Of a stretch of 64,000 nucleotides of DNA, positions 6,999-60,379 are shown in pieces (positions within the stretch are counted from its first letter, which is position 1; each line of letters starts with the position of its first letter). This stretch comes from Gammaproteobacteria bacterium (GTDB lineage: Bacteria > Pseudomonadota > Gammaproteobacteria > Steroidobacterales > Rariloculaceae). A program made the position numbers and the translations under genes. Under the pieces are notes generated by a model. That model saw only the letters and a list, made by a program, of their open reading frames with translations, did not search any database and was not told the DNA's origin. The stretch covers positions 1 to 64,000 of the forward strand of contig JAJEFE010000141.1 of assembly GCA_022820625.1 (NCBI GenBank), in the 5' to 3' direction.

Positions 6999-7784
6999 AT
7001 GCCCGAACTGCTGACCGATCCCGCGTTTGTCGCCATTGCGATCGTCGCGGTTCTCGTTACCGGTATTTCCAAGGGGGGATTCGGGGGCGTCGCCCTGCTG
7101 GCCGTCCCGCTGATGTCGCTGGTCATATCGCCCATACAGGCGGCGGGCATCATGCTGCCGATCATGATTCCCATGGACTTTCTCAGTATCTGGATGTACC
7201 GGAAACGCTGGGACGCGCGCAACCTGGCCCTGCTGATACCGGCGGCCACGGTGGGCATCACCATCGGCGGGCTGACCGCCGGCTGGGTCAACGACCAGAT
7301 CGTGCGCCTGCTGGTGGGCATCATCGCCGTGGTGTTCACGATTCACCGCGTCAACGAACTGTACCGGCACCGGGCGGCCGGGCAACCGCAGCCCCGCAGG
7401 GTTCCCAGCAAGCCCTGGGGCGTGTTCTGGGGCACCTGTGCGGGGTTCACCAGCTTCCTGGCCCACGCCGGGTCGCCGCCCTACCAGGTCTATGTCATTC
7501 CACAGGGCCTGAAGAAGGAGATCTACGCCGGCACGAGCGTGATGTTCTTTGCCGCCGCCAATGCCATCAAGCTCATCCCCTACGGGATGCTGGGCCAGCT
7601 TTCGGTGACCAACCTGTCGGTGTCCGCGGCACTCTTGCCGCTGGTACCCATCGGCGTCTTTCTGGGCGTGTGGATCAACCGCCGCCTGCCCGAAAAGACC
7701 TTTTTCGCGATCGTTCTGGCCTCCATCTTCCTTGTGGGCCTGAAGCTGATATGGGATGGTGTGTCGAATCTGGCCGGGGTGTAG
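6999..7784 (+). CDS. TauE/SafE (TSUP) family membrane exporter
   Basis: A 261-residue protein with about eight membrane helices and the TSUP signature GISKGGFGG near residue 22. A second, related repeat begins around VFWGTCAGFTSFLAHAGSPP (the TSFLAHAG motif). Members export sulfite, sulfoacetate or similar anions, commonly in gene sets that strip sulfur from organosulfonates. Its place between a dehydrogenase and a sulfatase supports a role in removing inorganic sulfur released in catabolism. The exact anion is inferred, not visible. Confidence 0.88.
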   Translation: MPELLTDPAFVAIAIVAVLVTGISKGGFGGVALLAVPLMSLVISPIQAAGIMLPIMIPMDFLSIWMYRKRWDARNLALLIPAATVGITIGGLTAGWVNDQIVRLLVGIIAVVFTIHRVNELYRHRAAGQPQPRRVPSKPWGVFWGTCAGFTSFLAHAGSPPYQVYVIPQGLKKEIYAGTSVMFFAAANAIKLIPYGMLGQLSVTNLSVSAALLPLVPIGVFLGVWINRRLPEKTFFAIVLASIFLVGLKLIWDGVSNLAGV

Positions 7785-7815
7785 CCGGCCAAGTGAAACC
7801 CGGGAAAATCTAGCA

Positions 7816-9558
7816 ATGAAAGCAATTCGCGCAGTGGTTCTGACGGCCGTATTCTCTCTTGCCGCCTGCGGACCGCAACCGCCTCCTCCCGAACCCGGCA
7901 CGGCATCGCCCGAACCCGAAACGGCATCGCCCGTACAACCGAATTTTCTGCTCATCGTCGCCGATGACCTGGGCTATACCGACATCGGCGCGTACGGCGG
8001 CGAAATCCGAACGCCGGTCCTGGACGATCTGGCATCGCGGTCCGTGACGTTCACGAATTTTCACGTCCTGCCCATGTGTGCGCCGACCCGCGCGATGCTG
8101 CTCGCGGGAACCGACCACCATGTCGCCGGGCTTGGCTCCATGTTCCCGCACAATTGGTTCTCGGGTCTGGAAGAAGGTCAACCCGGCTACGAGACCTTCC
8201 TTTCCCAGCGGGTGGCATCGCTGCCGGAACGCCTTGCCGAAGTGGGTTACCGCTCCTACATGGCCGGCAAGTGGCACCTTGGCCCCGACCCCGGGCAATG
8301 GCCCGTCGACCGCGGGTTCGACCGCTCGTTCGCGCTGCTGCCGGGCTCGGACAGCCACATGGTCATTCCCGAACGTCGGTACGTGGAAGACGGCGAATGG
8401 GTCGAACCGACGCAGGAAGGTTTCTATTCCACCCGCGCGCATACCGACAAGCTCATCGGATTCATCGACGAAAATCACGGCGACGGACGGCCCTTTTTCG
8501 TCTTCGCCGCCTACACGTCTCCCCACTGGCCGCTGCAGGTCCCGCCCGACTTCATCGACCGGTACGCCGGCGTCTACGACGATGGGTACGACGCGCTGCG
8601 CGTCGCGCGCATGGAGCGGGCCGAGGCGCTCGGCGTCATCCCGGAAACCGACGCAGGCGACTTCGAGCCCCTCGGGCCGGCCTGGGACGAGCTGAACGCC
8701 GAGACCCAGGCCCACTACGCCCGGCGCATGGAAATCTACGCCGCCATGGTGGAGAACCTGGATTATCACGTGGGCCGGCTGATCGACCACCTGGAAGACA
8801 TCGGCGAACTGGAAAACACCGTCATTCTGTTCATGTCGGATAACGGCGCGGCAACCGAGAACATGGAGTACAGCCCCACCTTTTCCCAGCGAATCGAGCG
8901 GGATAACAGCGACAATTCCCTGGAGAACCTGGGCGCGGCCAATTCCTACATCAGCTACGGTGCGAGCTGGGCCCAGGCGGCCACGGCGCCCTTCAGCCGC
9001 TTCAAGGGGTACGCGACCGAAGGCGGGACCCTGGTGCCCGCGTTCATCCTCCGCGGTGACGGGACGAATCCCGCAGGGCTCGACGGCCAGTACCTCGGCG
9101 CCATCGATATCGCTCCGACCCTGCTGGAGCTTGCGGGCGCGTCCATCGACAGCACCTCGGTCCAGGGCCGTGAAGTGGCCGCCATTACCGGCCGATCCTT
9201 TGCCGGCGTGCTCGGCGCCGATTCGGCTCCGGTCTATTCGGAAGACCACGTCTTCGCGACTGAATTGCACGGCAGCCGCTGGGTGCGCCAGGGGCGCTAC
9301 AAGCTGATTTGGGAGCAGCCTGCCGTCAACACCTGGTGGCCGTTCGAGGTTCCGGAGAGCTGGTATCGCTGGCAGCTCTACGATCTGCAGACCGACCCCG
9401 GAGAACGAACTGACATCAGCGCGGAACATCCGGAAGTGATGGACCGGCTGATCGCGGCGTGGGAGGACTACGCCGACACCAACCAGGTGGTGCGCGAGGT
9501 GCGGATCAATCAATTCGAACGATGGCAGGTACTTCCCGAAAACTACCCGAACCGGTGA
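7816..9558 (+). CDS. Arylsulfatase-family lipoprotein (type I sulfatase)
   Basis: A 581-residue sulfatase. The start at 7816 yields a lipoprotein signal with lipobox SLAAC (Cys18), then a Pro-rich linker with the repeated segment TASPEPETASP. The core begins with LLIVADDLGY, whose Asp pair binds calcium. The active-site motif is C88-A-P-T-R followed by AMLLAG, matching the CxPxR formylglycine signal. GKWHLG and the later DNG motif complete the site. The protein should hydrolyse organic sulfate esters in the periplasm and needs formylglycine maturation encoded elsewhere. Its TGA overlaps a GTG of the next gene, tying it to a TRAP transporter that may take up the desulfated product. Confidence 0.95.
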   Translation: MKAIRAVVLTAVFSLAACGPQPPPPEPGTASPEPETASPVQPNFLLIVADDLGYTDIGAYGGEIRTPVLDDLASRSVTFTNFHVLPMCAPTRAMLLAGTDHHVAGLGSMFPHNWFSGLEEGQPGYETFLSQRVASLPERLAEVGYRSYMAGKWHLGPDPGQWPVDRGFDRSFALLPGSDSHMVIPERRYVEDGEWVEPTQEGFYSTRAHTDKLIGFIDENHGDGRPFFVFAAYTSPHWPLQVPPDFIDRYAGVYDDGYDALRVARMERAEALGVIPETDAGDFEPLGPAWDELNAETQAHYARRMEIYAAMVENLDYHVGRLIDHLEDIGELENTVILFMSDNGAATENMEYSPTFSQRIERDNSDNSLENLGAANSYISYGASWAQAATAPFSRFKGYATEGGTLVPAFILRGDGTNPAGLDGQYLGAIDIAPTLLELAGASIDSTSVQGREVAAITGRSFAGVLGADSAPVYSEDHVFATELHGSRWVRQGRYKLIWEQPAVNTWWPFEVPESWYRWQLYDLQTDPGERTDISAEHPEVMDRLIAAWEDYADTNQVVREVRINQFERWQVLPENYPNR

Positions 9559-22730: not shown

Positions 22731-23288
22731 ATGGGCGTAAGACGAGTTGTCACGGGTCACGACGAGAACGGCAAGGCCATTGTGGTTTCGGACGGAGACG
22801 TCACCAATATTGTCCGGCCGGCCCACCGTCCGGGCGTTGCCATTCACAACGTCTGGCGTCTGGACAGTGCCCCGGCAAGGGTCTTTGGTCCGGAGGAAAC
22901 CACGACAGGCACCATCGGGTTGCTGCCGCCGGCCAACGGTTCGGTTTTCCGGGCGATCGAGTTTCCGCCGGAGAAGGGCTGGATTGACGACGTGGATTCC
23001 GATGCGGCGAAGGCGGCGTGGGACTCCGTCGGCGCCGGTCACGTGGGCGACAGCAGCGGCGCCGCGCCGCATCCCCTCATGCACCGAACCGAAACCGTGG
23101 ACTTCGCGCTCTGCCTGGAAGGCGAGATCTACCTGGTGCTGGACGACTCGGAGGTGTTGATCAAGGCCGGCGACACGGTCATCCAGCGCGGAACGAACCA
23201 CGCCTGGAGCAACCGCTCCGATGCGGTGTGCAAGATGATCTTCATACTCGTCGACGGGACCTTCGAGCAGGCATCCGGGGACGGCTGA
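22731..23288 (+). CDS. Cupin-domain protein
   Basis: A 185-residue cytoplasmic protein. The C-terminal half holds both cupin motifs: HPLMHRTETVDFALCLEGE, where His and Glu bind the metal, and GDTVIQRGTNHAWSN, which supplies the last His. The N-terminal half forms extra strands seen in small-molecule-binding cupins. Cupins of this layout are often dioxygenases, isomerases or ligand sensors for aromatic or sugar acids; the sequence does not decide which. AGAGG sits six bases before the ATG. Confidence 0.85.
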   Translation: MGVRRVVTGHDENGKAIVVSDGDVTNIVRPAHRPGVAIHNVWRLDSAPARVFGPEETTTGTIGLLPPANGSVFRAIEFPPEKGWIDDVDSDAAKAAWDSVGAGHVGDSSGAAPHPLMHRTETVDFALCLEGEIYLVLDDSEVLIKAGDTVIQRGTNHAWSNRSDAVCKMIFILVDGTFEQASGDG

Positions 23289-23369: not shown

Positions 23370-24854
23370 CTAGCCCTCGCTGCCGTGTAACGCGTCGATC
23401 TGCGCCCGCAGCGCGTCGAGTTGCGCCTGTTCCTCCTCGGAGAGATCGCCGGCCATCAGGTCGTTGTGCTCGTACGGATCCGCCTGCAGATCGAAGAAAT
23501 GCTCGACGCCCTGGTCCACCAGCAATTTGTAACGCTGGTTGCGCATCGTGTACCCACCGCTTTCGAGACCCGCGTCGGTAGTAAAGGAATCGGCATAGAC
23601 CCATTGTCGAATCGACTCGCGGCCGGGGTCCGAGAGATAGGGCACCAGACTCACCGAGTCCACGGTGATTCCTTCGGGCACTGCCTCTGCGCTGTCGATG
23701 CCCGCCAGTTCGAGCAGCGTGGCAAACAGGTCCGCCGAGTTTACGAGCGCATCGGACACGGCGCCGCTCGCCACGCCGGGTCCCGCAATCATGAAGGGGA
23801 CATGAATGCCGCCGTTGTAGAGCGACCCTTTCGCGTACCCCGGTCGAAACGGCGCACGGACCGCGTTATCGCCGGTGCCGTTGTCGCCGATGAACAGGAC
23901 GTAGGTGTTCTCGAGCACCTCCGGGCCGATGTGATCGAGCAGCCGGCCGATCTCCGTGTCCATGGCCTCCATCATGGCATCGAAGAAGCGTGGATCCTGC
24001 TGCTCGGCATCCGCCACGCCAAAATCCGAAAAATCGGATTGCAGCAGATCCCGGGGCGGCATGTGAATGGGCGTATGCGGTGAATTGAACGCGAGCCAGA
24101 GAAACCAGGGCGCGTCACGCTCGGATGGGGCGCCCAGCCATTCAATGGCCTCATCCACCTTGTCGGTGACCGCGTAGCCGCTTCGAGTCGAGAACTCGCC
24201 ATTTTCCAGGTGCACCCAGGCGAAATAGCTCTCGGGACAGCAGCGGATCAGACCCGAGAAGTGGTCGAAACCCACGAGATTGGGATGATCCTGCCAACCG
24301 TTGCGAACGTCGGCGAGGTGCCACTTGCCGAACGCCGCCTTGTCATAACCCGGATCCGGACCGGCGGAGAGCGCCTGAGTCAACGCAAACTCGTCCCGGC
24401 CGATGCCCCACCGGGCACCGTCGGCGATGCCGGTGAATGTGAAGCCCATGCCCATGCCCATGCCCATGCCCGTTCCCGCACCCATGCCGAATTCAACGAC
24501 CCCGGCGGGGACCGGCGGCGGCTCGGGCATCGGTCCTCGCGCCTCGCCGTCGCCGGTGGGGCCGCCCACGCCGGTACGAAAGCCGTAACGGCCCGTCAGA
24601 ATCGTCGCCCGGGTCGGCGAACACATCGACTGGGACCACATGTTGGTAAAGCGAACGCCGCGCTCGGCCAGCGCATCCAGGGTCGCCGTCCTCGGCGTCT
24701 GCGTTCCCACGCCGAAGCTCGCCAGCGTTTCCACGCCCATATCATCGCCCAGGATGACCAGGATGTTGGGACGCGATCCGTCGGGCCCCTGCGCGTTGGC
24801 GGCGGAGGCCGCAACGAGCAGGCAAAAAGCCGCCTTCGCAATGTTATTGCCCAT
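23370..24854 (-). CDS. Type I sulfatase
   Basis: A 494-residue exported sulfatase with a signal peptide ending ANA. It has ILVILGDDMG with the calcium-binding Asp pair, the formylglycine motif C78-S-P-T-R with ATILTGRYGFRTG, FGKWHLA, and GDNGTGDN at the metal site. Between the active site and GKWH there is an insert with a Gly-Met run coded by a hexanucleotide repeat (24445-24486). It is closely related to the sulfatase at 58910-60379. It is the last gene of a five-gene minus operon; its start lies within a 13-bp tandem repeat directly after the preceding stop. Confidence 0.95.
   Translation of the reverse strand: MGNNIAKAAFCLLVAASAANAQGPDGSRPNILVILGDDMGVETLASFGVGTQTPRTATLDALAERGVRFTNMWSQSMCSPTRATILTGRYGFRTGVGGPTGDGEARGPMPEPPPVPAGVVEFGMGAGTGMGMGMGMGFTFTGIADGARWGIGRDEFALTQALSAGPDPGYDKAAFGKWHLADVRNGWQDHPNLVGFDHFSGLIRCCPESYFAWVHLENGEFSTRSGYAVTDKVDEAIEWLGAPSERDAPWFLWLAFNSPHTPIHMPPRDLLQSDFSDFGVADAEQQDPRFFDAMMEAMDTEIGRLLDHIGPEVLENTYVLFIGDNGTGDNAVRAPFRPGYAKGSLYNGGIHVPFMIAGPGVASGAVSDALVNSADLFATLLELAGIDSAEAVPEGITVDSVSLVPYLSDPGRESIRQWVYADSFTTDAGLESGGYTMRNQRYKLLVDQGVEHFFDLQADPYEHNDLMAGDLSEEEQAQLDALRAQIDALHGSEG
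24445..24486. repeat. Hexanucleotide repeat inside a sulfatase gene
   Basis: Seven six-base units: four perfect CCCATG (24445-24468), then CCCGTT, CCCGCA and CCCATG. On the coding minus strand it encodes alternating Gly-Met with Gly-Thr/Gly-Ala variants. The unit length keeps the frame, so slippage would change only the number of Gly-Met pairs. Confidence 0.85.
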
Positions 24855-26020: not shown

Positions 26021-27628
26021 TCAGCGAGCCGTCGGCATCGCAGCCGAAACGGACTCGCGCCAGGCGTGAAGCCGGGCACGCAGTTCGGCAGCTTGCTCAG
26101 GCTGCTCGGCAGCCAGATCGCGCTGTTCGCCGGGATCGTTCTGAAGATCGAAGAGTTGCACGGTGCCGTTTTCGAAGTACTCCAGCAGCTTGTAGGCGCC
26201 ATCCCGGACCGCACCGCCGGGACTCTGCATGCCGTGATTGCTGTAGTGCGGGAAGTGCCAGAAGATCGCTCCGCGCTCGAATGCGCCGCCTTCGAGAGCG
26301 GCGGCAAAGCTCACGCCGTCGACGTGCTGTTCCGGCCTGGACGGCAAGCCGGCCATCTCGAGCAGGGTCGGATAGAAGTCGGTGCTGATCACGGCTTCGT
26401 CGCGAACCGCGCCGGCCTGGCCCACGCCCGGCCACCGCACGATCAGCGGCACGCGTATGCCGCCTTCGTACAACCAGCCCTTCGCGCCGCGCAGGGGCAG
26501 ACTGGACGTTGCGTAAGCGACGTCCAGCTCGCCGGGGTCCACCACCCGCTCCGGATTGCCGAAGTTGGCTGCCGCCATGCCTCCGTTGTCGGAGTAAAAG
26601 ACGACGATCGTATGCTCCGTCAGTCCCAGTTCCTCAAGCATTCGGAGCACACGCCCCATGCTTTCGTCGACGGTGGTGACCATCGCGGCGAACTGGACAT
26701 TGTCCTGATGCTGCTTGATCTTGACCGTGCGCCGGGGCAACACCCGGTATTCCCCATGCGAGGGCTCCTGCCCCAGGGCATCCAGTTGGGCGGGCGAAAG
26801 CGGCTCGGGATCGTCCGGGTTACCCTCCAGTCTGTATGCGGGACCAGCCGGCACTTCCGCCGATTTCAGCTTCTCCCGGTACCGTAATACCAGGTCCGGA
26901 CGCCCCTCGATCGGGTCGTGTACGGCGAAGTGCGACAGATAGAGGAAGAAGGGCGACACCCGGCTCTGCTCCATGAACTCCAGAGCCAGGTCGGTGATCC
27001 GGTCGGTGAGGTAGGTGTCCTCCTCTCCCTCGACCGTCAGGCCTTCCATCCTGTACGGCGGGAAGTAGCCGCCCCGAGGGGTCGATCCGTAGAATCGAGG
27101 CGCCTGGACGTCGAATCCCTGGTGGAGGGGGCCGGCTTCGCCTTCGCCGAGGTGCCACTTGCCGAAGATCCCCGTCCGGTAGCCGTGCTCCTGCAACGCT
27201 TCGGCCAGGGTGAGTTCCCCAAGCGGCAGGGCCGCCAGCTTCTCGCCGCTCAGCAAGCGTTCGAAGTCACGCCCGGGGCGCCCCGGCAACCAGTCCGTCA
27301 GGCGTAGCCGCGCCGGGTACTTGCCGGTCAGCAGCGCCGCGCGCGTTGGCGAGCAGACGTGGGCGGCGGCGTAGGCGTTGGTGAAGCGTACGCCCTGTTC
27401 GGCCAGCCGGTCGATGTTCGGCGTCTCGTGGAACGTGCTGCCGAAGACGCCGATGTCACTCCAGCCCAGGTCGTCGACCATGAAGAAGACGATGTTCGGC
27501 GGCCTTTCCGTCGCTGCCGGAGCATCGGGCACGCTCTGCGCGAAGACAAACGCGGCGAACAGACAGAAAGGCACGGCAACGAGAGCGCTGCCGATTTTTG
27601 TGACCGGGAAATTTGGCATGGAATTCAT
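26021..27628 (-). CDS. Type I sulfatase
   Basis: A 535-residue exported sulfatase. The ATG at 27628 has GGGAGG four bases upstream and yields a signal peptide ending FVFAQ. Motifs: IVFFMVDDLGWSD (calcium Asp pair), C92-S-P-T-R followed by AALLTGKYPARLRLTDW, FGKWHLGEGEAG, and YSDNGGM at the metal site. The ARLRLTDW region and overall length recall the sulfatases acting on glycosaminoglycan-like or other polysaccharide sulfates, but the substrate is unproven. It is the middle gene of a sulfatase operon with a quinoprotein dehydrogenase at its head. Confidence 0.95.
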   Translation of the reverse strand: MNSMPNFPVTKIGSALVAVPFCLFAAFVFAQSVPDAPAATERPPNIVFFMVDDLGWSDIGVFGSTFHETPNIDRLAEQGVRFTNAYAAAHVCSPTRAALLTGKYPARLRLTDWLPGRPGRDFERLLSGEKLAALPLGELTLAEALQEHGYRTGIFGKWHLGEGEAGPLHQGFDVQAPRFYGSTPRGGYFPPYRMEGLTVEGEEDTYLTDRITDLALEFMEQSRVSPFFLYLSHFAVHDPIEGRPDLVLRYREKLKSAEVPAGPAYRLEGNPDDPEPLSPAQLDALGQEPSHGEYRVLPRRTVKIKQHQDNVQFAAMVTTVDESMGRVLRMLEELGLTEHTIVVFYSDNGGMAAANFGNPERVVDPGELDVAYATSSLPLRGAKGWLYEGGIRVPLIVRWPGVGQAGAVRDEAVISTDFYPTLLEMAGLPSRPEQHVDGVSFAAALEGGAFERGAIFWHFPHYSNHGMQSPGGAVRDGAYKLLEYFENGTVQLFDLQNDPGEQRDLAAEQPEQAAELRARLHAWRESVSAAMPTAR

Positions 27629-27711
27629 TGCGCCTCCCTGGTTGTGTGATGTCCCTTCATGGTTCGACCATAGACTAGTCGAGTCCTCCGGCACAGAGCT
27701 TCTTTCCGTGT

Positions 27712-29127
27712 TCAACGAGAGTCAAAGAGCGACGGGCGCGTTTCCATGGCTGCCTGATGCTCTCGCACGGCCTCGAGCATCTCCGCCAGGATCTCGGGGC
27801 GCTCGGCCGCCAGGTCCCAGGATTCGCCCGGGTCTTCACCGAGATGATAGAGAAGCGGCGTCTCATGCTCGTTCCGCTCCGGTCCGATTCCGTACGCCTT
27901 TTCGGTGATCAGGTGAATCTTGTACGGCCCCTTGCGAAGTGCATACAGCTCACCGGCGCGGTAGTGGGCCAGGACCTCGCGTGTTCCCGGCTCGCCCCGC
28001 AGCAGTGTGCCGCTCAGGTCGACGCCATCCAGAATGTCTTCGGTCGTACCGCCGGCGAGTGCGAGCAGGGTCGGGAAGAGATCCATCGCGGAGCCGATAT
28101 CGCGTACCACGCCCGGCTGTATGCTGCCGGGCCACCACATGACGCCCGGTACCCGGATTCCACCCTCGAAGGTTGTCCCCTTGCCGTTTCGCAACGGACC
28201 CGCGGTGCCCTTGTCGGTGCGCATGGAGAGCCAGGGGCCATTATCGCTCGTGAATACGACCAGCGTGTCTTCCGCCACGCCCGCGCGCTCAAGGCTTCGG
28301 CGTATCTCTCCCGCGCTCCAGTCGATTTCCTCGATGACATCTCCATAGCGTCCCGCAAGGCTCGTACCCGCGAACTCGGGTGCCGGAAAGAGGGGCGTGT
28401 GCGGCATGGTGTAGGGGACGAAAAGAAAAAAGGGCCGATCCGAGTGACGGTCGATGAATTCCTGCGCCTGTTGCGTATAACGGCGCGTGATCGTCTCCTG
28501 GCGGGCTGGCCGTTCGAGGATCTGGTCATGATATTCCTGACCCACCGATTGGCTCTGCATCAGCGGGACGTTCCAGTACTCGATTCTCGGAGAGAAATAG
28601 GCACCGGGGACACGTTCATCAGTCCCGTCCATGTCGTTCGAATAAGGGATTCCGAACCAGTAGTCGAAACCGTGCCGCGTCGGCAGGTGTTCGGGCCGGG
28701 CCCCGAGGTGCCACTTCCCGACGATCCCGGTGGCGTAACCCAATTCCCGCAAGGCCTCGGCGATCGTGGTGTTCTCTTCGGAGATGCCGCCCGCCTGATT
28801 GGGAAAGAGCACGCGTGACCTGTGGCCATACAGTCCGCTGCGGTTTGGCTGCTTGCCGGTGAGCAGGGCACCGCGGCTGGGCGAGCACACCGCCGAGGCC
28901 ACGTAGAAGTCGGTCCACCTCTGGCCTTCCGCCGCCATGGCGTCCAGATTCGGCGTGCGGATGGAAGGGTGCCCATAGCTTGAGAGGTCGCCATAGCCGA
29001 GATCGTCGGCGAACAGGATGACGAAGTTGGGCATGCGCCGTGGAGGCGATTCCGCGGGCTGGGCTGCAAGAGCAAGCGGCAGCAGAGCCAGGCAAATGAG
29101 GAAGCAGAGGTTTCTTGTACCGGTCAC
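27712..29127 (-). CDS. Type I sulfatase (arylsulfatase A-like)
   Basis: A 471-residue exported sulfatase, GTG start at 29127 with AGGAG six bases upstream. Motifs: FVILFADDLGYGD, the canonical formylglycine site C81-S-P-S-R with GALLTGKQPNRSG, VGKWHLGARPEHLP and TSDNGPW. Its length and the HTPLFPAPEF segment are closest to the arylsulfatase A group. It shares an operon with two other sulfatases of different subgroups, suggesting the set removes several sulfates from one complex substrate rather than being simple duplicates. Confidence 0.95.
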   Translation of the reverse strand: MTGTRNLCFLICLALLPLALAAQPAESPPRRMPNFVILFADDLGYGDLSSYGHPSIRTPNLDAMAAEGQRWTDFYVASAVCSPSRGALLTGKQPNRSGLYGHRSRVLFPNQAGGISEENTTIAEALRELGYATGIVGKWHLGARPEHLPTRHGFDYWFGIPYSNDMDGTDERVPGAYFSPRIEYWNVPLMQSQSVGQEYHDQILERPARQETITRRYTQQAQEFIDRHSDRPFFLFVPYTMPHTPLFPAPEFAGTSLAGRYGDVIEEIDWSAGEIRRSLERAGVAEDTLVVFTSDNGPWLSMRTDKGTAGPLRNGKGTTFEGGIRVPGVMWWPGSIQPGVVRDIGSAMDLFPTLLALAGGTTEDILDGVDLSGTLLRGEPGTREVLAHYRAGELYALRKGPYKIHLITEKAYGIGPERNEHETPLLYHLGEDPGESWDLAAERPEILAEMLEAVREHQAAMETRPSLFDSR

Positions 29128-32736: not shown

Positions 32737-33672
32737 CTAGCCCCCCTCACCGTAGTAGGGCAACAGCCGGCCGAATACCAGCACGGCAGCCCATGAAACC
32801 ATTGTCAATGCCGCCATCACCTTGGCCCGCGGGGGTGCGTCCTGATCCGACTTCACATCCCAGATATCGTCGAAGATCGTGAAGTAGATGATGGCGAGAC
32901 CGCCCACCATCAGCCAGATGATCTTCGGGGGAAACCCGTCCATGGCGACGTAGCGTCCCGAGTCGGCGATGAAGAAGAACATGCCGGTGACGATGTTCAC
33001 CAGCAGGGCCAGCGCCCCGAGCGGCAGCAACCGATGCACCGCCGAATACGGCACATTCCTGGCGACGCCGAGAACGCGAAGCCCCACCAGCAGCACGACG
33101 CCGAATAGCACCGCCATGCCCACAAAGTGCGCCGCCTCCATGGACGGCCAGGCCCAGATGATGCTCTGAATGGCCGCTTCGATCCCGGCAGTAAGACCGA
33201 TGGGTTCGGCCATCGCACCCTCGCGCAGATCCGGCCGAATTACGGTGCCGCCGAGGCTACCGGCTTCGACGATCGTCAGCAATGCGACAATGCCCAGCGC
33301 CAGCACGGCATAAAATCCCGCGGTGGAAGCACGCCCGTAGCGGCGCTCCCGCCACAATACGAGCCACGACACGAGGCCCGTGAGCCCGATGAAAACGAAG
33401 GCAAGCAACGCGGCATCGCGATGGGCATCCAGAATCTGGGCCGACATTTCCGGCCGCCCCTGGTAGGCCCAGCCGGCCGCCGCGCCGGTAATGTAGGTGG
33501 GAATCGCCAGCAGGCCCAGAACCACGAACAGGATCAGGCTGACCCTGCGCATGTCGTCGTTCTTCATGTAAGCCGAAGCGATCAGCAACCCCAGGACGAA
33601 AACGCTCCCGATCAGCGGGAAATGATTCAGCACGATGTGCAGGTGCGGGCCGGTACTGGGGAATACGTCCAT
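32737..33672 (-). CDS. Membrane protein with DUF2231-like first half
   Basis: A 311-residue protein with about eight helices. The first half (HLHIVLNHFPLIGSVFVLG) matches the DUF2231 type, with closely placed histidines on the first helix and another in DAHRDAALLAF. The second half (EAAHFVGMAVLFGVVLLVG to GRLLPYY) is homologous to the separate 157-residue protein downstream. Repeated membrane histidines suggest b-type haem binding and a redox role; this is inference. It begins the three-gene membrane cluster and is divergent from the GAPDH gene. Confidence 0.7.
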   Translation of the reverse strand: MDVFPSTGPHLHIVLNHFPLIGSVFVLGLLIASAYMKNDDMRRVSLILFVVLGLLAIPTYITGAAAGWAYQGRPEMSAQILDAHRDAALLAFVFIGLTGLVSWLVLWRERRYGRASTAGFYAVLALGIVALLTIVEAGSLGGTVIRPDLREGAMAEPIGLTAGIEAAIQSIIWAWPSMEAAHFVGMAVLFGVVLLVGLRVLGVARNVPYSAVHRLLPLGALALLVNIVTGMFFFIADSGRYVAMDGFPPKIIWLMVGGLAIIYFTIFDDIWDVKSDQDAPPRAKVMAALTMVSWAAVLVFGRLLPYYGEGG

Positions 33673-33794: not shown

Positions 33795-34817
33795 ATGGTC
33801 AAGGTACTGGTAGCGGGATTTGGCGTCATCGGGCAGCGACTCGCCGACGGGGTGGCGCTGCAGGAGGACATGGAACTGGTGGGTGTCGTGGATGCGGCGC
33901 CGACCCTTACAGTGCAGGCTCTGCGCGACCGGGGCATGCCGTACAGGCTGTTTGCGGCCTATGACGACGCCCGCGCACCGCTGGAAGCCGCCGGCGTCGC
34001 GGTCTCCGGAACGATGGAGGAAATCCTGCCCGAAGTGGATGTGGTTCTGGACGCGGCCCCCGGCGGAATCGGCGCGAAAAACAAGGAGTTCTACATCAAG
34101 CACGGTAACAAGGCCGTCTTCCAGGGCGGCGAGAAGGACGAGGTTGCCGATGTCTTCTTCCACGGCTATGCGAACTACGAGGAGGGGCTGAATGCCCAGT
34201 TCCTCAAGTTGACGTCGTGCAACACGACCGGGCTGATCCGCGCGGTCGACTGCCTGGACCGCGGTCCCGGCGTGGAGCGTGTCGCCATCACGATCGTCCG
34301 GCGCGTGGCCGACCCCGGCGACTACCACCGGGGCATCGTCAACGCGCTGAAAGTGGACAAGGCCCCGAACCATCAGGCGGTGGACCTGATGGCCATCATG
34401 CCCCACGTGGACGCCACGGGGCTGCTGGTGCATACGCCCGTCACCCACGGCCACTTCATCTCCGTCCTCGCCACGCCGAAGGACGACCTCTCGGTGGACG
34501 AGGCCAGGGACCTGTTCGAGGCGCACGACCGCATCCGCGTCGTTTCCACCGACCAGGGGTTCCTGGGCAACGCCTCGATCTTCAAGTACGCGCGCGACAT
34601 GGGCTTCCCCCGCGGAGACATCTACGAGTTGCCCGTCTGGGAAGACACCCTGGTGAAGTCCGGACGGGACATCATGTTCGGAATCCATATTCCGCAGGAA
34701 TCGGTGACCATTCCCGAGTCCATCGATGGCATTCGTGCGTCCATGGCCATGGAGACGGACCGGCTCAAGGCAGTCGGCGATACCAACCGTTACCTGGGCC
34801 TGCCCTACTGGAAATAG
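33795..34817 (+). CDS. Archaeal-type (type II) glyceraldehyde-3-phosphate dehydrogenase
   Basis: A 340-residue enzyme of the archaeal GAPDH branch, not the usual bacterial GapA. VKVLVAGFGVIGQRLAD is the nucleotide-binding start. The active-site motif is S-C142-N-T-T-G, where bacterial GapA has SCTT. VADPGDYHRGIVNAL and a C-terminal IPES-x-D-x-IR-A segment also fit the type II group. It interconverts glyceraldehyde 3-phosphate and 1,3-bisphosphoglycerate with NAD(P). AGGA precedes the ATG. It is followed after 151 bases by phosphoglycerate kinase, so the two consecutive steps are encoded together. Confidence 0.93.
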   Translation: MVKVLVAGFGVIGQRLADGVALQEDMELVGVVDAAPTLTVQALRDRGMPYRLFAAYDDARAPLEAAGVAVSGTMEEILPEVDVVLDAAPGGIGAKNKEFYIKHGNKAVFQGGEKDEVADVFFHGYANYEEGLNAQFLKLTSCNTTGLIRAVDCLDRGPGVERVAITIVRRVADPGDYHRGIVNALKVDKAPNHQAVDLMAIMPHVDATGLLVHTPVTHGHFISVLATPKDDLSVDEARDLFEAHDRIRVVSTDQGFLGNASIFKYARDMGFPRGDIYELPVWEDTLVKSGRDIMFGIHIPQESVTIPESIDGIRASMAMETDRLKAVGDTNRYLGLPYWK

Positions 34818-34968
34818 CCTGCGCCGAAGCCGGCCGGGGAGGCTCGCCGATGAGTGGACGGCACGTCGTGCGGAGGCGCTGTTTCCGTGGCATGCGCATG
34901 TTTCCATCCCGCAGCCCGAAGTTGCGCCCGGCGGCGGCGATCTGCCTCAGACGCATCGGGAGACGCCC

Positions 34969-36216
34969 ATGGCGAGCATGACCCGTCTCGACCGTTTCGA
35001 CTACGGCGGCAAGACCGTGCTGCTGCGGGTGGACATCAATTCGCCCATCGATGTCGACACGAAGCGCATCGTCAATGAAAACCGCATTCGGAAAAGTCTC
35101 CCGACGATTCGGCATCTGCTCGAAGGCGGCGCCCGCCTCGCCCTGATCGCACACCAGGGCGACACGCTGGACTATCAGAACCTGATACCTCTCGAGGAAC
35201 ACGCCGAAAAGCTGACCGGGCACCTGGGCCGGCGCGTGGCCTACATCGATGACGTGGCCGGGCCCGCGGCCCGGGAAGCGGTAAAGGCCCTCGGGCCCGG
35301 AGAAGCCGTTCTGCTCGGCAACCTCCGCTATCTGAGCGAGGAAATCTCGACCTTCGAAACTGCCGTGAAACTGGCGCCCGGGGAAATGCTCGACACGTAT
35401 CTGATCCGCGGGCTGGCACCGCTGATCGATTACTACGTGAACGATGCCTTCGCGGCCGCTCACCGAAACGCTCCGTCCATGGTGGCTTTCCAGGAACTGA
35501 AGCCCACCGCTGCCGGTATTCTGCTGGCGGATGAGGTTGCGGCTCTGGACCGGGTGATGCACGCACCCGAGCACCCCTGCGTGTTCGTGCTCGGCGGTGC
35601 AAAGATTTCCGATGCCTTCGGCATGATGGAGCCGGTTCTCGCATCAGGTACGGCCGACCGGATCCTGGCGTGCGGCATTACCGGTGTCGTGATGCTGCTG
35701 GCCAGCGGCTTCCGACTCGGGCGCAAGCAGGAGCAGTTTCTGGAGGACCGCGGACTGAACGTCTTCGTTCCCCAGGCCGCGGAATACCTGCAACAGTACC
35801 CCGGCCGGATTGCCATGCCCCTGGACCTGGCCTATGCCGAGTCCGGCGAGCGACGCGAGATCGCCATCGAAGACCTGCCCGCGGAGCACCTGTTCCTGGA
35901 TATCGGCGAGCGCACGATTGCCGCATACGAAGCCGAACTCCGCGGGGCGAATACCATCTTCGTCAACGGCCCGCCCGGCGTTTACGAGCAAGCGGAGTTT
36001 GCCGCCGGGACACGTGCCATCTGGCGGGCGATAGCCGCCTCGCCGGGCTACTCGGTGATCGGCGGCGGCGACACGGTCACGGCGGCGGCGAGCTTCGTCG
36101 ATACGGCGGATATCGACTACGTGTGTACGGCAGGGGGCGCGATGGTGCGGTATCTCTCCGGTATCCGGCTGCCCCTCATCGAGGCCATGGAAAAGGCCCA
36201 CGCCCGGGACGGCTGA
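34969..36216 (+). CDS. pgk: Phosphoglycerate kinase, archaeal-like
   Basis: A 415-residue kinase. The ATG at 34969 follows GGGAG by six bases. N-terminal substrate site: TVLLRVDINSPID and ALIAHQGD, where most bacteria have LRVDFNVP and SHLGRP. Later come LLGNLRYLSEE, YYVNDAFAAAHRNAPS, LGGAKISDAFGMM and the nucleotide-binding end GYSVIGGGDTVTAAA. Departures at the first motifs resemble archaeal enzymes and match the archaeal-type GAPDH upstream, so the pair may have been acquired together. It transfers phosphate between 1,3-bisphosphoglycerate and ADP. Confidence 0.93.
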   Translation: MASMTRLDRFDYGGKTVLLRVDINSPIDVDTKRIVNENRIRKSLPTIRHLLEGGARLALIAHQGDTLDYQNLIPLEEHAEKLTGHLGRRVAYIDDVAGPAAREAVKALGPGEAVLLGNLRYLSEEISTFETAVKLAPGEMLDTYLIRGLAPLIDYYVNDAFAAAHRNAPSMVAFQELKPTAAGILLADEVAALDRVMHAPEHPCVFVLGGAKISDAFGMMEPVLASGTADRILACGITGVVMLLASGFRLGRKQEQFLEDRGLNVFVPQAAEYLQQYPGRIAMPLDLAYAESGERREIAIEDLPAEHLFLDIGERTIAAYEAELRGANTIFVNGPPGVYEQAEFAAGTRAIWRAIAASPGYSVIGGGDTVTAAASFVDTADIDYVCTAGGAMVRYLSGIRLPLIEAMEKAHARDG

Positions 36217-58909: not shown

Positions 58910-60379
58910 CTATCGGTGCGCGCGAAGCTCGCGCACCCGGTTCCTCAGAGCCTCGAATTCCGCCTGTTCCTGCTCGGTCAGATCACGGTCCAGGAGGTTG
59001 GAATGCTCGTAAGGGTCCTCCCGCAAGTCGTAGAATTCCTCCACCCCTTCGAAGCGAACCAATTTGTAGCGTTGGTTGCGCATCGCGTAGTCGGCTGTCT
59101 CCACCCCGTCGAAACCGCCGAAGAATTCGTCAACGTAGAGCCAATCCCGCGCGGATGGCGCCCCCGGATCCGAAAGCGCCTCGAGAAAGCTGACGGAATC
59201 GTGGGAGACGTGCTGCGGTACGGCCGCAACGGGGTCCACACCCGCCATCTCCATGATCGTCACGAAGAGATCCGTCGAATTGACCAGCGCCTCGGAGACT
59301 TCGCCCTGGGAAACTCCGGGTCCGGTCACGATCAGGGGTACGTTGACGCCTCCCTCGTAGACCGTACCCTTGGCGCGGTCGCGGCGGAACGGGGCGCTGA
59401 CAACCGGCCCCCAGGTGCCGTTGTCGCCCATGAAGATGACATAGGTGTTGTCGCGAACTTCCGGGCGCAGACCGGCCAGCAGCCGGCCGATCTGCGTATC
59501 CATGGCCTCGAGCATTGCCTCGAAGGCCGCCCGCCAGCGCTCCGGGGGCATGGCGTCCGCCGGCACGTGGGAGTAATCCGACTGCCGATACTCCACCGGC
59601 GGCACGTGCATCGGCGTGTGCGCAAGGTTGAATGCAAACCACAGGAACCAGGGTTCCTCTCCCCGTCGATCGAGCCATGCGATGGCGTCGTCAACCTTGT
59701 CCTGAGGTGCGTAGCCCACGGTGCCCGTGACCTGGCCGTTGACCACCTTTCTCCAGGCGAAATACGACTCGGGCCCGCCACCCATCAGCCCCGCGAAATG
59801 ATCGAACCCGGTCAGATTGGGGTGGTCGATCCAACCGTTTCCGTCACCCGCGAGATGCCACTTGCCAAAGGCCGCGGTGGCATAACCCGGATTCGCATGC
59901 GCCTTCAGCGCCATGGGCAGGGCGTATTCCTCCGGCAGAAGAAAGGGCCGCGGCAAGGCCCGGTCGGAAGCCAGGGCAGGATTCGGTTCGTTCCGTGACT
60001 CGGCAGGCGACCCGGTGGGAATTTCCGGAGGAGGCGGCATGGGGCCGGAGCCCACCGGCCGGCCGATGCCGGTCCGGAAACCGTAACGCCCGGTGATCAC
60101 CGTGGCGCGGGTTGGAGAACAGACCGGCTGCGCCCAGAAGTTGGTGAACCGAACGCCCTCCCTCGCCAGGCTATCCAGCGTGTCCGTGGCGGGAGCCTGC
60201 TCGCTGAGCCCATAGGACGCGAGTGTCTCCACGCCCATGTCGTCCCCGATGATGAGCAGGATATTCGGGGCGGCGCCGGCTCCATTCCACACCGTTGGAA
60301 GGATGCATACGCCTGCCGCCAGGACCGCCAGCCGGCGAAATGCCGTAATCCGTAAGCCATGTATTCCGGACGTATTCAT
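58910..60379 (-). CDS. Type I sulfatase
   Basis: A 489-residue exported sulfatase, signal peptide ending AGAAP. Motifs: ILLIIGDDMGVETLASYG, C87-S-P-T-R with ATVITGRYGFRTGIG, AFGKWHLAGDG and GDNGTWGP. It is closely related to the sulfatase at 23370-24854 along its length, but its insert after the active site is Pro/Ser-rich where the other has Gly-Met repeats. It probably works with the TctA-TctB transporter encoded just downstream, removing sulfate from a compound before uptake. It needs formylglycine formation by an enzyme not encoded here. Confidence 0.95.
   Translation of the reverse strand: MNTSGIHGLRITAFRRLAVLAAGVCILPTVWNGAGAAPNILLIIGDDMGVETLASYGLSEQAPATDTLDSLAREGVRFTNFWAQPVCSPTRATVITGRYGFRTGIGRPVGSGPMPPPPEIPTGSPAESRNEPNPALASDRALPRPFLLPEEYALPMALKAHANPGYATAAFGKWHLAGDGNGWIDHPNLTGFDHFAGLMGGGPESYFAWRKVVNGQVTGTVGYAPQDKVDDAIAWLDRRGEEPWFLWFAFNLAHTPMHVPPVEYRQSDYSHVPADAMPPERWRAAFEAMLEAMDTQIGRLLAGLRPEVRDNTYVIFMGDNGTWGPVVSAPFRRDRAKGTVYEGGVNVPLIVTGPGVSQGEVSEALVNSTDLFVTIMEMAGVDPVAAVPQHVSHDSVSFLEALSDPGAPSARDWLYVDEFFGGFDGVETADYAMRNQRYKLVRFEGVEEFYDLREDPYEHSNLLDRDLTEQEQAEFEALRNRVRELRAHR

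Follow-up and report, generated by a model that had tools for sequence, protein, structure and literature searches.

An extra pair of archaeal-type GAPDH and phosphoglycerate kinase homologues in a marine gammaproteobacterium, most likely acquired from Firmicutes, and its possible link to malate semialdehyde

The gene pair and its surroundings

The window, by which the whole stretch of 64,000 nucleotides analysed here is meant (contig JAJEFE010000141.1 of a gammaproteobacterial assembly), carries two genes on the plus strand, separated by 151 bases, that encode homologues of type II (archaeal-type) glyceraldehyde-3-phosphate dehydrogenase (GAPDH) and of archaeal-type phosphoglycerate kinase (PGK), referred to as GAP2 and PGK2 (Table 1). 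GAP2 matches two protein family models over its full length, NF003251 at 379.3 bits (cut-off 185) and TIGR01546 at 275.2 bits (cut-off 232.9). Four solved structures were matched, 1cf2 (the best, at 237 bits), 2czc, 1b7g, and 2yyy, all of which we take, from the organisms indicated by the entry codes, to be archaeal GAPDHs. The initial annotation had called this protein an archaeal-type GAPDH on account of its SCNTTG motif, and these matches bear it out. The active-site Cys of GAP2, C142, lies inside the motif, and residues S141, C142, N143, T144, and T145 are invariant across 12 aligned sequences. The phosphorylating oxidation of glyceraldehyde-3-phosphate by GAP2 is putative only. PGK2 matches PF00162 at 344.2 bits (cut-off 27), and its top solved relative is Pyrococcus 2cun at 296 bits, followed by a runner-up at 191 bits. 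Its start was set by homologues at the ATG at 34969, the start in the list of open reading frames (34726) being too early. Comparison of the window's GAP2 with that of a sister genome (G001; dN 0.033, dS 0.56) and of its PGK2 with that of another (G005; dN 0.035, dS 0.28) indicates purifying selection on both genes. Antisense to GAP2 lies a frame of 372 aa that is open in G005 too; it is probably a mirror frame produced by codon bias.

Table 1. Features of the window (positions in the 64,000-nucleotide stretch)
Feature	Coordinates	Strand	Remarks
GAP2, type II (archaeal-type) GAPDH homologue, 340 aa	33795..34817	+	SCNTTG, Asp33, Gln194, Pro300
PGK2, archaeal-type phosphoglycerate kinase homologue, 415 aa	34969..36216	+	HQGD replacing HLGR
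Open frame antisense to GAP2, 372 aa	33789..34907	-	probably codon-bias mirror frame
Membrane protein, 311 aa, divergent from GAP2	32737..33672	-	weak DUF6644 match, E 0.013
Membrane protein, 157 aa	32140..32613	-	homologue in G012 passes DUF6644 cut-off
Cupin homologue (aligned stretch, not called gene)	22731..23270	+	66% identical to cupin of G012
Sulfatase-like genes	7756..9558; 23370..24854; 26021..29127; 58910..60379		27712..29127 confirmed by Pfam; the rest named by eye

At the gammaproteobacterial loci, scans against Pfam, NCBIfam, and PDB identified the conserved companions of the pair as two membrane proteins of DUF6644 type together with a cupin, an alpha/beta hydrolase, and an amidohydrolase resembling ACMSD, and these point to no pathway. 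The 311-aa membrane protein is found in six of the nine family loci, the other three stretches ending before its place, and the 157-aa one in seven. The cupin adjoins the pair in one family member (G012) and lies about 10.5 kb away from it in the window. Several sulfatase-like genes are also present in the window (Table 1).

Host genome and distribution in the family

The host, described as a marine bacterium, is represented by a draft genome of 169 contigs that total 4.56 Mb, with a completeness of 95.3% and an estimated contamination of 4.94%. A search of this genome for a standard gapA and pgk, as proposed in the initial annotation, found both on one contig (C126), where the type I GAPDH and canonical PGK genes are flanked by those of transketolase and pyruvate kinase (neighbours named by eye). 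Replacement of the glycolytic pair in this genome is thus ruled out and the type II pair is an addition; GAP2 is the only type II GAPDH encoded.

The cut-off for type II GAPDH was applied to 117 genomes of near relatives, the window's included, and was passed by nine, every one of them among the 22 genomes sampled from the window's family. The carriers comprise six of the seven genomes of the window's genus and three further family members; the genus member in which no type II GAPDH was matched (G002) is 76% complete. The claim of an archaeal-type PGK paired with the GAPDH, besides being in line with 2cun as best solved relative, holds for all nine carriers, in each of which such a PGK directly adjoins the type II GAPDH, a recurrence that is more than chance. 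Type I GAPDH is present in all nine (the match in G003 is partial) and canonical PGK in eight. The exception is G012, 98% complete and 1.6 Mb in size, which has kept type I gapA, flanked by genes resembling those of transketolase and pyruvate kinase, with only 26 bases where pgk is expected (L096 7739-10227, G012:C12), and in which PGK2 is the only PGK. This gammaproteobacterium can be regarded as a natural complementation experiment. An even sample of the class Gammaproteobacteria gave a type II GAPDH at 1e-40 in 2 of 369 genomes, the window's among them, and the other positive falls in a separate, plasmid-type clade.

Wider relatives and origin of the pair

At least 563 confirmed relatives of GAP2 were obtained in a wider scan with one genome per species, and the best 80 of these were analysed. 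They come from Firmicutes (Clostridia), spirochaetes, Chloroflexi, Synergistota, Planctomycetota, and Kiritimatiellota, and also include one Desulfovibrio, one actinomycete, and Gammaproteobacteria bacterium TMED78 (NHEF01000019.1). The GAP2 of the window is 61–74% identical to the best 80 of at least 563 relatives, except for that of TMED78, to which it is 77% identical. In 76 of the same best 80, PGK2 is encoded in the same stretch as GAP2, and a Dehalococcoidales genome carries a natural GAP2-PGK2 fusion in a single frame of 761 aa (L126 / L232 2278-4563). A second PGK and a type I GAPDH were each found in 40 of 41 genomes of relatives, and GAP2-PGK2 is therefore an extra pair there as well; in the Dehalococcoidales genome G132, PGK2 is the sole PGK and accompanies a type I GAPDH. 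Clostridium magnum carries the pair twice (L112 and L116), one copy adjoining Iol and transketolase genes and the other LarA, with malic enzyme near both. In the accessible part of an earlier report, type II GAPDH was called uncommon in bacteria, present in a handful of genomes and with no functional evidence (PMC6543838). Its bacterial spread is wider than that part of the report described.

Type II GAPDHs of another bacterial clade are found on 37 plasmid records, 17 of them conjugative. Members of this clade are about 32–36% identical to GAP2 and mostly 40–45% identical to the Pyrococcus enzyme. Two of these plasmid loci (L186 5992-7035 and L187 5986-7026) have Asp33 and no adjoining PGK, and both carry a gene of the cyclopropane-fatty-acyl-phospholipid synthase family and a SAM methyltransferase. 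Arsenate resistance together with ArsJ is a role of extra GAPDHs; such a role was rejected here, as no ars gene was seen among the window's translations (by eye) or in these two plasmid neighbourhoods.

In the tree of GAP2 (95 sequences, only four of them archaeal GAPDHs), the nine gammaproteobacterial proteins form one clade (support 100/99) nested in Firmicutes and adjoining Eubacteriales STD2, Sinanaerobacter, Bacilliculturomica, and Alkalibacter (100/96). Between all 88 sequences of the bacterial clade and the archaeal and plasmid ones lies a long branch with full support. The tree of PGK (100 sequences, a single archaeal PGK included) was built by a quick method with SH-aLRT support only; it groups the gammaproteobacterial PGK2 with STD2, Sinanaerobacter, Bacilliculturomica, and L132 (support 84) and keeps PGK2 and 2cun separate from the canonical PGKs. 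Neither protein is thus placed in the ordinary GapA or Pgk clades. As both trees nest the gammaproteobacterial family in Firmicutes, a Firmicutes bacterium is the most likely joint source of the two genes. Joint acquisition had been suggested in the initial annotation and is supported by both trees, with the donor on the side of Firmicutes; a direct archaeal donor is rejected by them, on an archaeal sample that is tiny (four GAPDHs, one PGK). An assembly artefact, in which the contig would be Firmicutes contamination, could be imagined for a draft genome with the contamination estimate given above. It is highly improbable, as the GC content is nearly even along the window and the pair recurs with the same flanking membrane proteins in sister genomes, whose GAP2 proteins form the single clade just described. 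Acquisition from Firmicutes and extra-copy status are well supported, and we hold them with high confidence.

Signature residues

The GAP2 clade is homologous over its full length to the archaeal type II GAPDHs (1cf2, 2czc, 1b7g, 2yyy) and has the SCNTTG motif in common with them, but the identity is 35–38% (the window's GAP2 versus three archaeal GAPDHs) and three positions differ. Position 33 is Lys in the four archaeal enzymes and Asp in 88 of 89 GAP2 sequences (Gly in one), whereas His194 and His300 of the four are replaced by Gln194 and Pro300 in 89 of 89 sequences each. Lys33 of the archaeal type II GAPDHs presumably helps NADP binding. According to the accessible part of one source, an Asp or Glu of β2 excludes NADP (PMC4777477), and position 33 was equated with this residue by reading the alignment. 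The presence of Asp33 instead of Lys33 predicts that GAP2 likely uses NAD rather than NADP. This contradicts the use of NADP proposed in the initial annotation and weighs against an archaeal NADP-dependent gluconeogenic pair comparable to haloarchaeal gapII. The precedent for such a pair is the division of labour between haloarchaeal gapI and gapII, as given in the accessible part of its source (PMC10817205), and the host genome does encode two GAPDHs as well as two PGKs. Both trees, however, indicate Firmicutes, and the conserved neighbours of the pair in relatives, presented in the next section, are catabolic, so the gluconeogenic direction finds no support either; we consider this explanation unlikely.

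PGK2 has the HQG motif in common with archaeal 2cun, but differs from it in the Glu preceding NxRF, which is Gly or Asp, in the Ser of STGGG, which is Cys in 82 of 85 PGK2 sequences, and in Lys65. No Arg or Lys is found at position 65 in any of the 85 PGK2 sequences (Asp in 44, Ser in 38, Gly in 3), whereas Arg or Lys occupies it in 60 of 60 canonical PGKs (58 by script; L044 and L213 by eye). In the accessible part of one source, R65, R122, and R170 of PGK are described as binding the 3-phosphate of the substrate (PMC7729029). N25, R38, H62, R122, and R170 are each kept in 85 of 85 PGK2 sequences, catalytic K197 (Thermotoga numbering) in 84 of 85, and D23 in 83 of 85. With the Arg or Lys of position 65 gone and nearly all other substrate residues kept, PGK2 looks intact as a kinase, with less positive charge at the phosphate site.

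Gene neighbourhoods in relatives

Neighbours were counted by tblastn in stretches of up to 6 kb on each side of GAP2 for the best 80 of at least 563 relatives, and the loci of canonical pgk from 20 of the 41 relative genomes served as control. As contigs end early in places, the counts for the 80 loci are lower bounds. LarA is found near GAP2 at no fewer than 44 of these best 80 loci, malic enzyme at 35 or more, the N-terminal part of transketolase at 33 or more, and its C-terminal part or a related E1 beta at 32 or more; IolD, IolE, and IolB occur at no fewer than 30, 28, and 25 loci, and a class III aminotransferase at four or more. At least one of these partners is present at 70 of the 80, and at the other 10 none was found within the stretch. 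Around canonical pgk, LarA, malic enzyme, transketolase, Iol, and aminotransferase genes were each found at 0 of 20 loci, while type I GAPDH was near it at 14 of 20. The conserved neighbours of GAP2 in relatives are catabolic.

Most of the LarA proteins can be assigned further, as NF052593, a model for malate racemase, is matched by 29 of 37 at E<=1e-137. The LarA beside the pair in Sinanaerobacter, one of the closest Firmicutes relatives among the matches listed, scores 557 (cut-off 500). Representative IolD, IolE, and IolG proteins pass the NCBIfam cut-offs; the IolB representative stays at 84 bits (cut-off 205), yet matches KduI/IolB in Pfam. Only 2 of 41 relative genomes have an IolC match over the cut-off, and weaker IolC-like matches (about 190–233 bits, cut-off 300) make its absence uncertain in several of them. 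In Carboxydocella (complete-genome record), one run consists of transporter-GAP2-PGK2-TktN-TktC-IolB-IolD-IolE-IolG, without the kinase and aldolase. Among the 38 of the best 80 loci having IolB, IolD, or IolE, the N-terminal part of transketolase was not seen within the stretch at 18. In close Firmicutes relatives, the pair is adjoined by an aminotransferase of the 4-aminobutyrate type, which in L108 is over the TIGR00700 cut-off. In Acetobacterium (L222, L224), GAP2-PGK2-malic enzyme-LarA follow genes resembling molybdenum hydroxylases and an E1-E2-E3 set (both named by eye) as well as one resembling 3-hydroxyacyl-CoA dehydrogenase.

A proposed malate-linked module

It is proposed that the pair was repurposed and, alongside the host's own glycolytic pair, acts on malate semialdehyde, a reading that we put close to an even chance. 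GAP2 would convert D-malate semialdehyde (3-hydroxy-4-oxobutanoate) with NAD and phosphate to malyl phosphate, and PGK2 would use malyl phosphate and ADP to form D-malate and ATP. D-malate semialdehyde is an analogue of glyceraldehyde-3-phosphate in which CH2-COO- replaces CH2-OPO3, and it is our best single guess of the substrate, with about the same near-even probability. In Firmicutes and spirochaetes, the aldehyde might have two sources. Transketolase cuts a ketose next to its carbonyl. It might thus cleave 2-deoxy-5-keto-gluconate, the inositol intermediate made by IolB; as derived from textbook stereochemistry, this would be a ketose of the D-threo form that transketolase requires, and the cleavage product would be D-configured, its acid, D-malate, being the analogue of 3-phosphoglycerate. 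The second source might be the 4-aminobutyrate-type aminotransferase, and the E1-E2-E3-like set of Acetobacterium could be a further upstream set fitting the malate-semialdehyde node. Malate racemase would then turn D-malate into L-malate, from which malic enzyme would give pyruvate. A D-malate product would require a racemase ahead of malic enzyme, and many of the operons carry both. For the pair in the window, the same substrate is argued from the signature residues and from descent from the malate-linked Firmicutes branch. The analysis shows the acquisition, the extra-copy status, the changed residues, and the gene neighbourhoods; cofactor, substrate, and direction are inferred.

The locus in the window has no malate or inositol neighbours, which is a point against the malate reading. 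Iol, transketolase, malate racemase, malic enzyme, and class III aminotransferase partners were not recognized in the window (by eye), no malate or inositol genes were found beside the pair in G012, and LarA was found in 0 of 22 genomes of the family. The pair might instead be a true GAPDH and PGK in an auxiliary role, NAD-linked and acting on glyceraldehyde-3-phosphate and 3-phosphoglycerate in the catabolic direction in the service of particular catabolic operons, which we regard as possible, although appreciably less than an even chance. This explanation agrees with the conservation of the catalytic Cys and of most substrate residues of PGK, and the status of PGK2 as sole PGK in G012 and G132, both with type I GAPDH, indirectly supports its putative 3-phosphoglycerate kinase activity. 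As canonical pgk was lost in G012, PGK2 would be able to serve glycolysis too, at least there, and it may well still use 3-phosphoglycerate. The uniform loss of Arg or Lys at position 65 speaks against a true pair, which also leaves the malate racemase and malic enzyme partners unexplained. In addition, the type II GAPDH of Pseudoclostridium thermosuccinogenes was inactive with NAD or NADP, according to the accessible part of the report, although this enzyme may fall outside the GAP2 clade (PMC6543838).

The proposed action on malate semialdehyde can be compared with several known systems. Aspartokinase and aspartate-semialdehyde dehydrogenase connect a four-carbon semialdehyde, an acyl phosphate, and a kinase in the biosynthetic direction; the chemistry is as proposed for GAP2 and PGK2, but the protein families differ. 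The Bacillus-type inositol pathway runs through IolG, IolE, IolD, and IolB and then takes the kinase and aldolase route IolC-IolJ-IolA. The proposed route would share the four upstream enzymes and differ in that the sugar acid would be split by transketolase. The carnitine pathway of Acinetobacter includes a malic semialdehyde dehydrogenase, which we take to be a member of the aldehyde dehydrogenase family. As described in the accessible part of its source, this enzyme has the substrate proposed for GAP2 and gives D-malate, but it does so without malyl phosphate and a kinase step (PMC11353897). Carnitine is a known source of malate semialdehyde, but its use as such was unsupported in the window's family: with E. 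coli YeaW as query, no match at 1e-40 was obtained in eight of the nine pair-bearing genomes, the window's included, and the only family match to CntA/YeaW was in G004, at 40% identity. Most LarA proteins beside the pair are of the type of LarAH6, a nickel-dependent malate racemase (PMC7583248, PMC11770544), and the words phosphoglycerate, glyceraldehyde, and transketolase do not occur in the accessible main texts of these two reports. The literature searched, with subscription journals outside reach, gave no description of the proposed reactions, and we are not aware of any measurement of malate-semialdehyde activity in the GAP2 clade.

Significance

ATP formation by substrate-level phosphorylation has its textbook example in the pair of GAPDH and PGK. 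It is tentatively proposed, at somewhat under an even chance for the proposal as a whole, that GAP2 and PGK2 form a new module of this kind derived from archaeal-type GAPDH and PGK, consisting of a phosphorylating malate-semialdehyde dehydrogenase and a malyl-phosphate kinase. In Firmicutes, spirochaetes, and Chloroflexi, the module would form the lower half of an inositol pathway that is based on transketolase and has malate racemase and malic enzyme as its last steps. It would have been exported to marine Gammaproteobacteria, with PGK2 taking over the glycolytic role in one streamlined lineage. If this is true, GAPDH-PGK chemistry would have a second use in nature, in a sister pair for a four-carbon acid, and a function would be found for bacterial type II GAPDHs of hitherto no known role. 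Anaerobes, many of them from guts, would have a new energy-conserving route for inositol, and the formation of ATP from a malate-like aldehyde, not a sugar phosphate, would be a new energy-conserving reaction.
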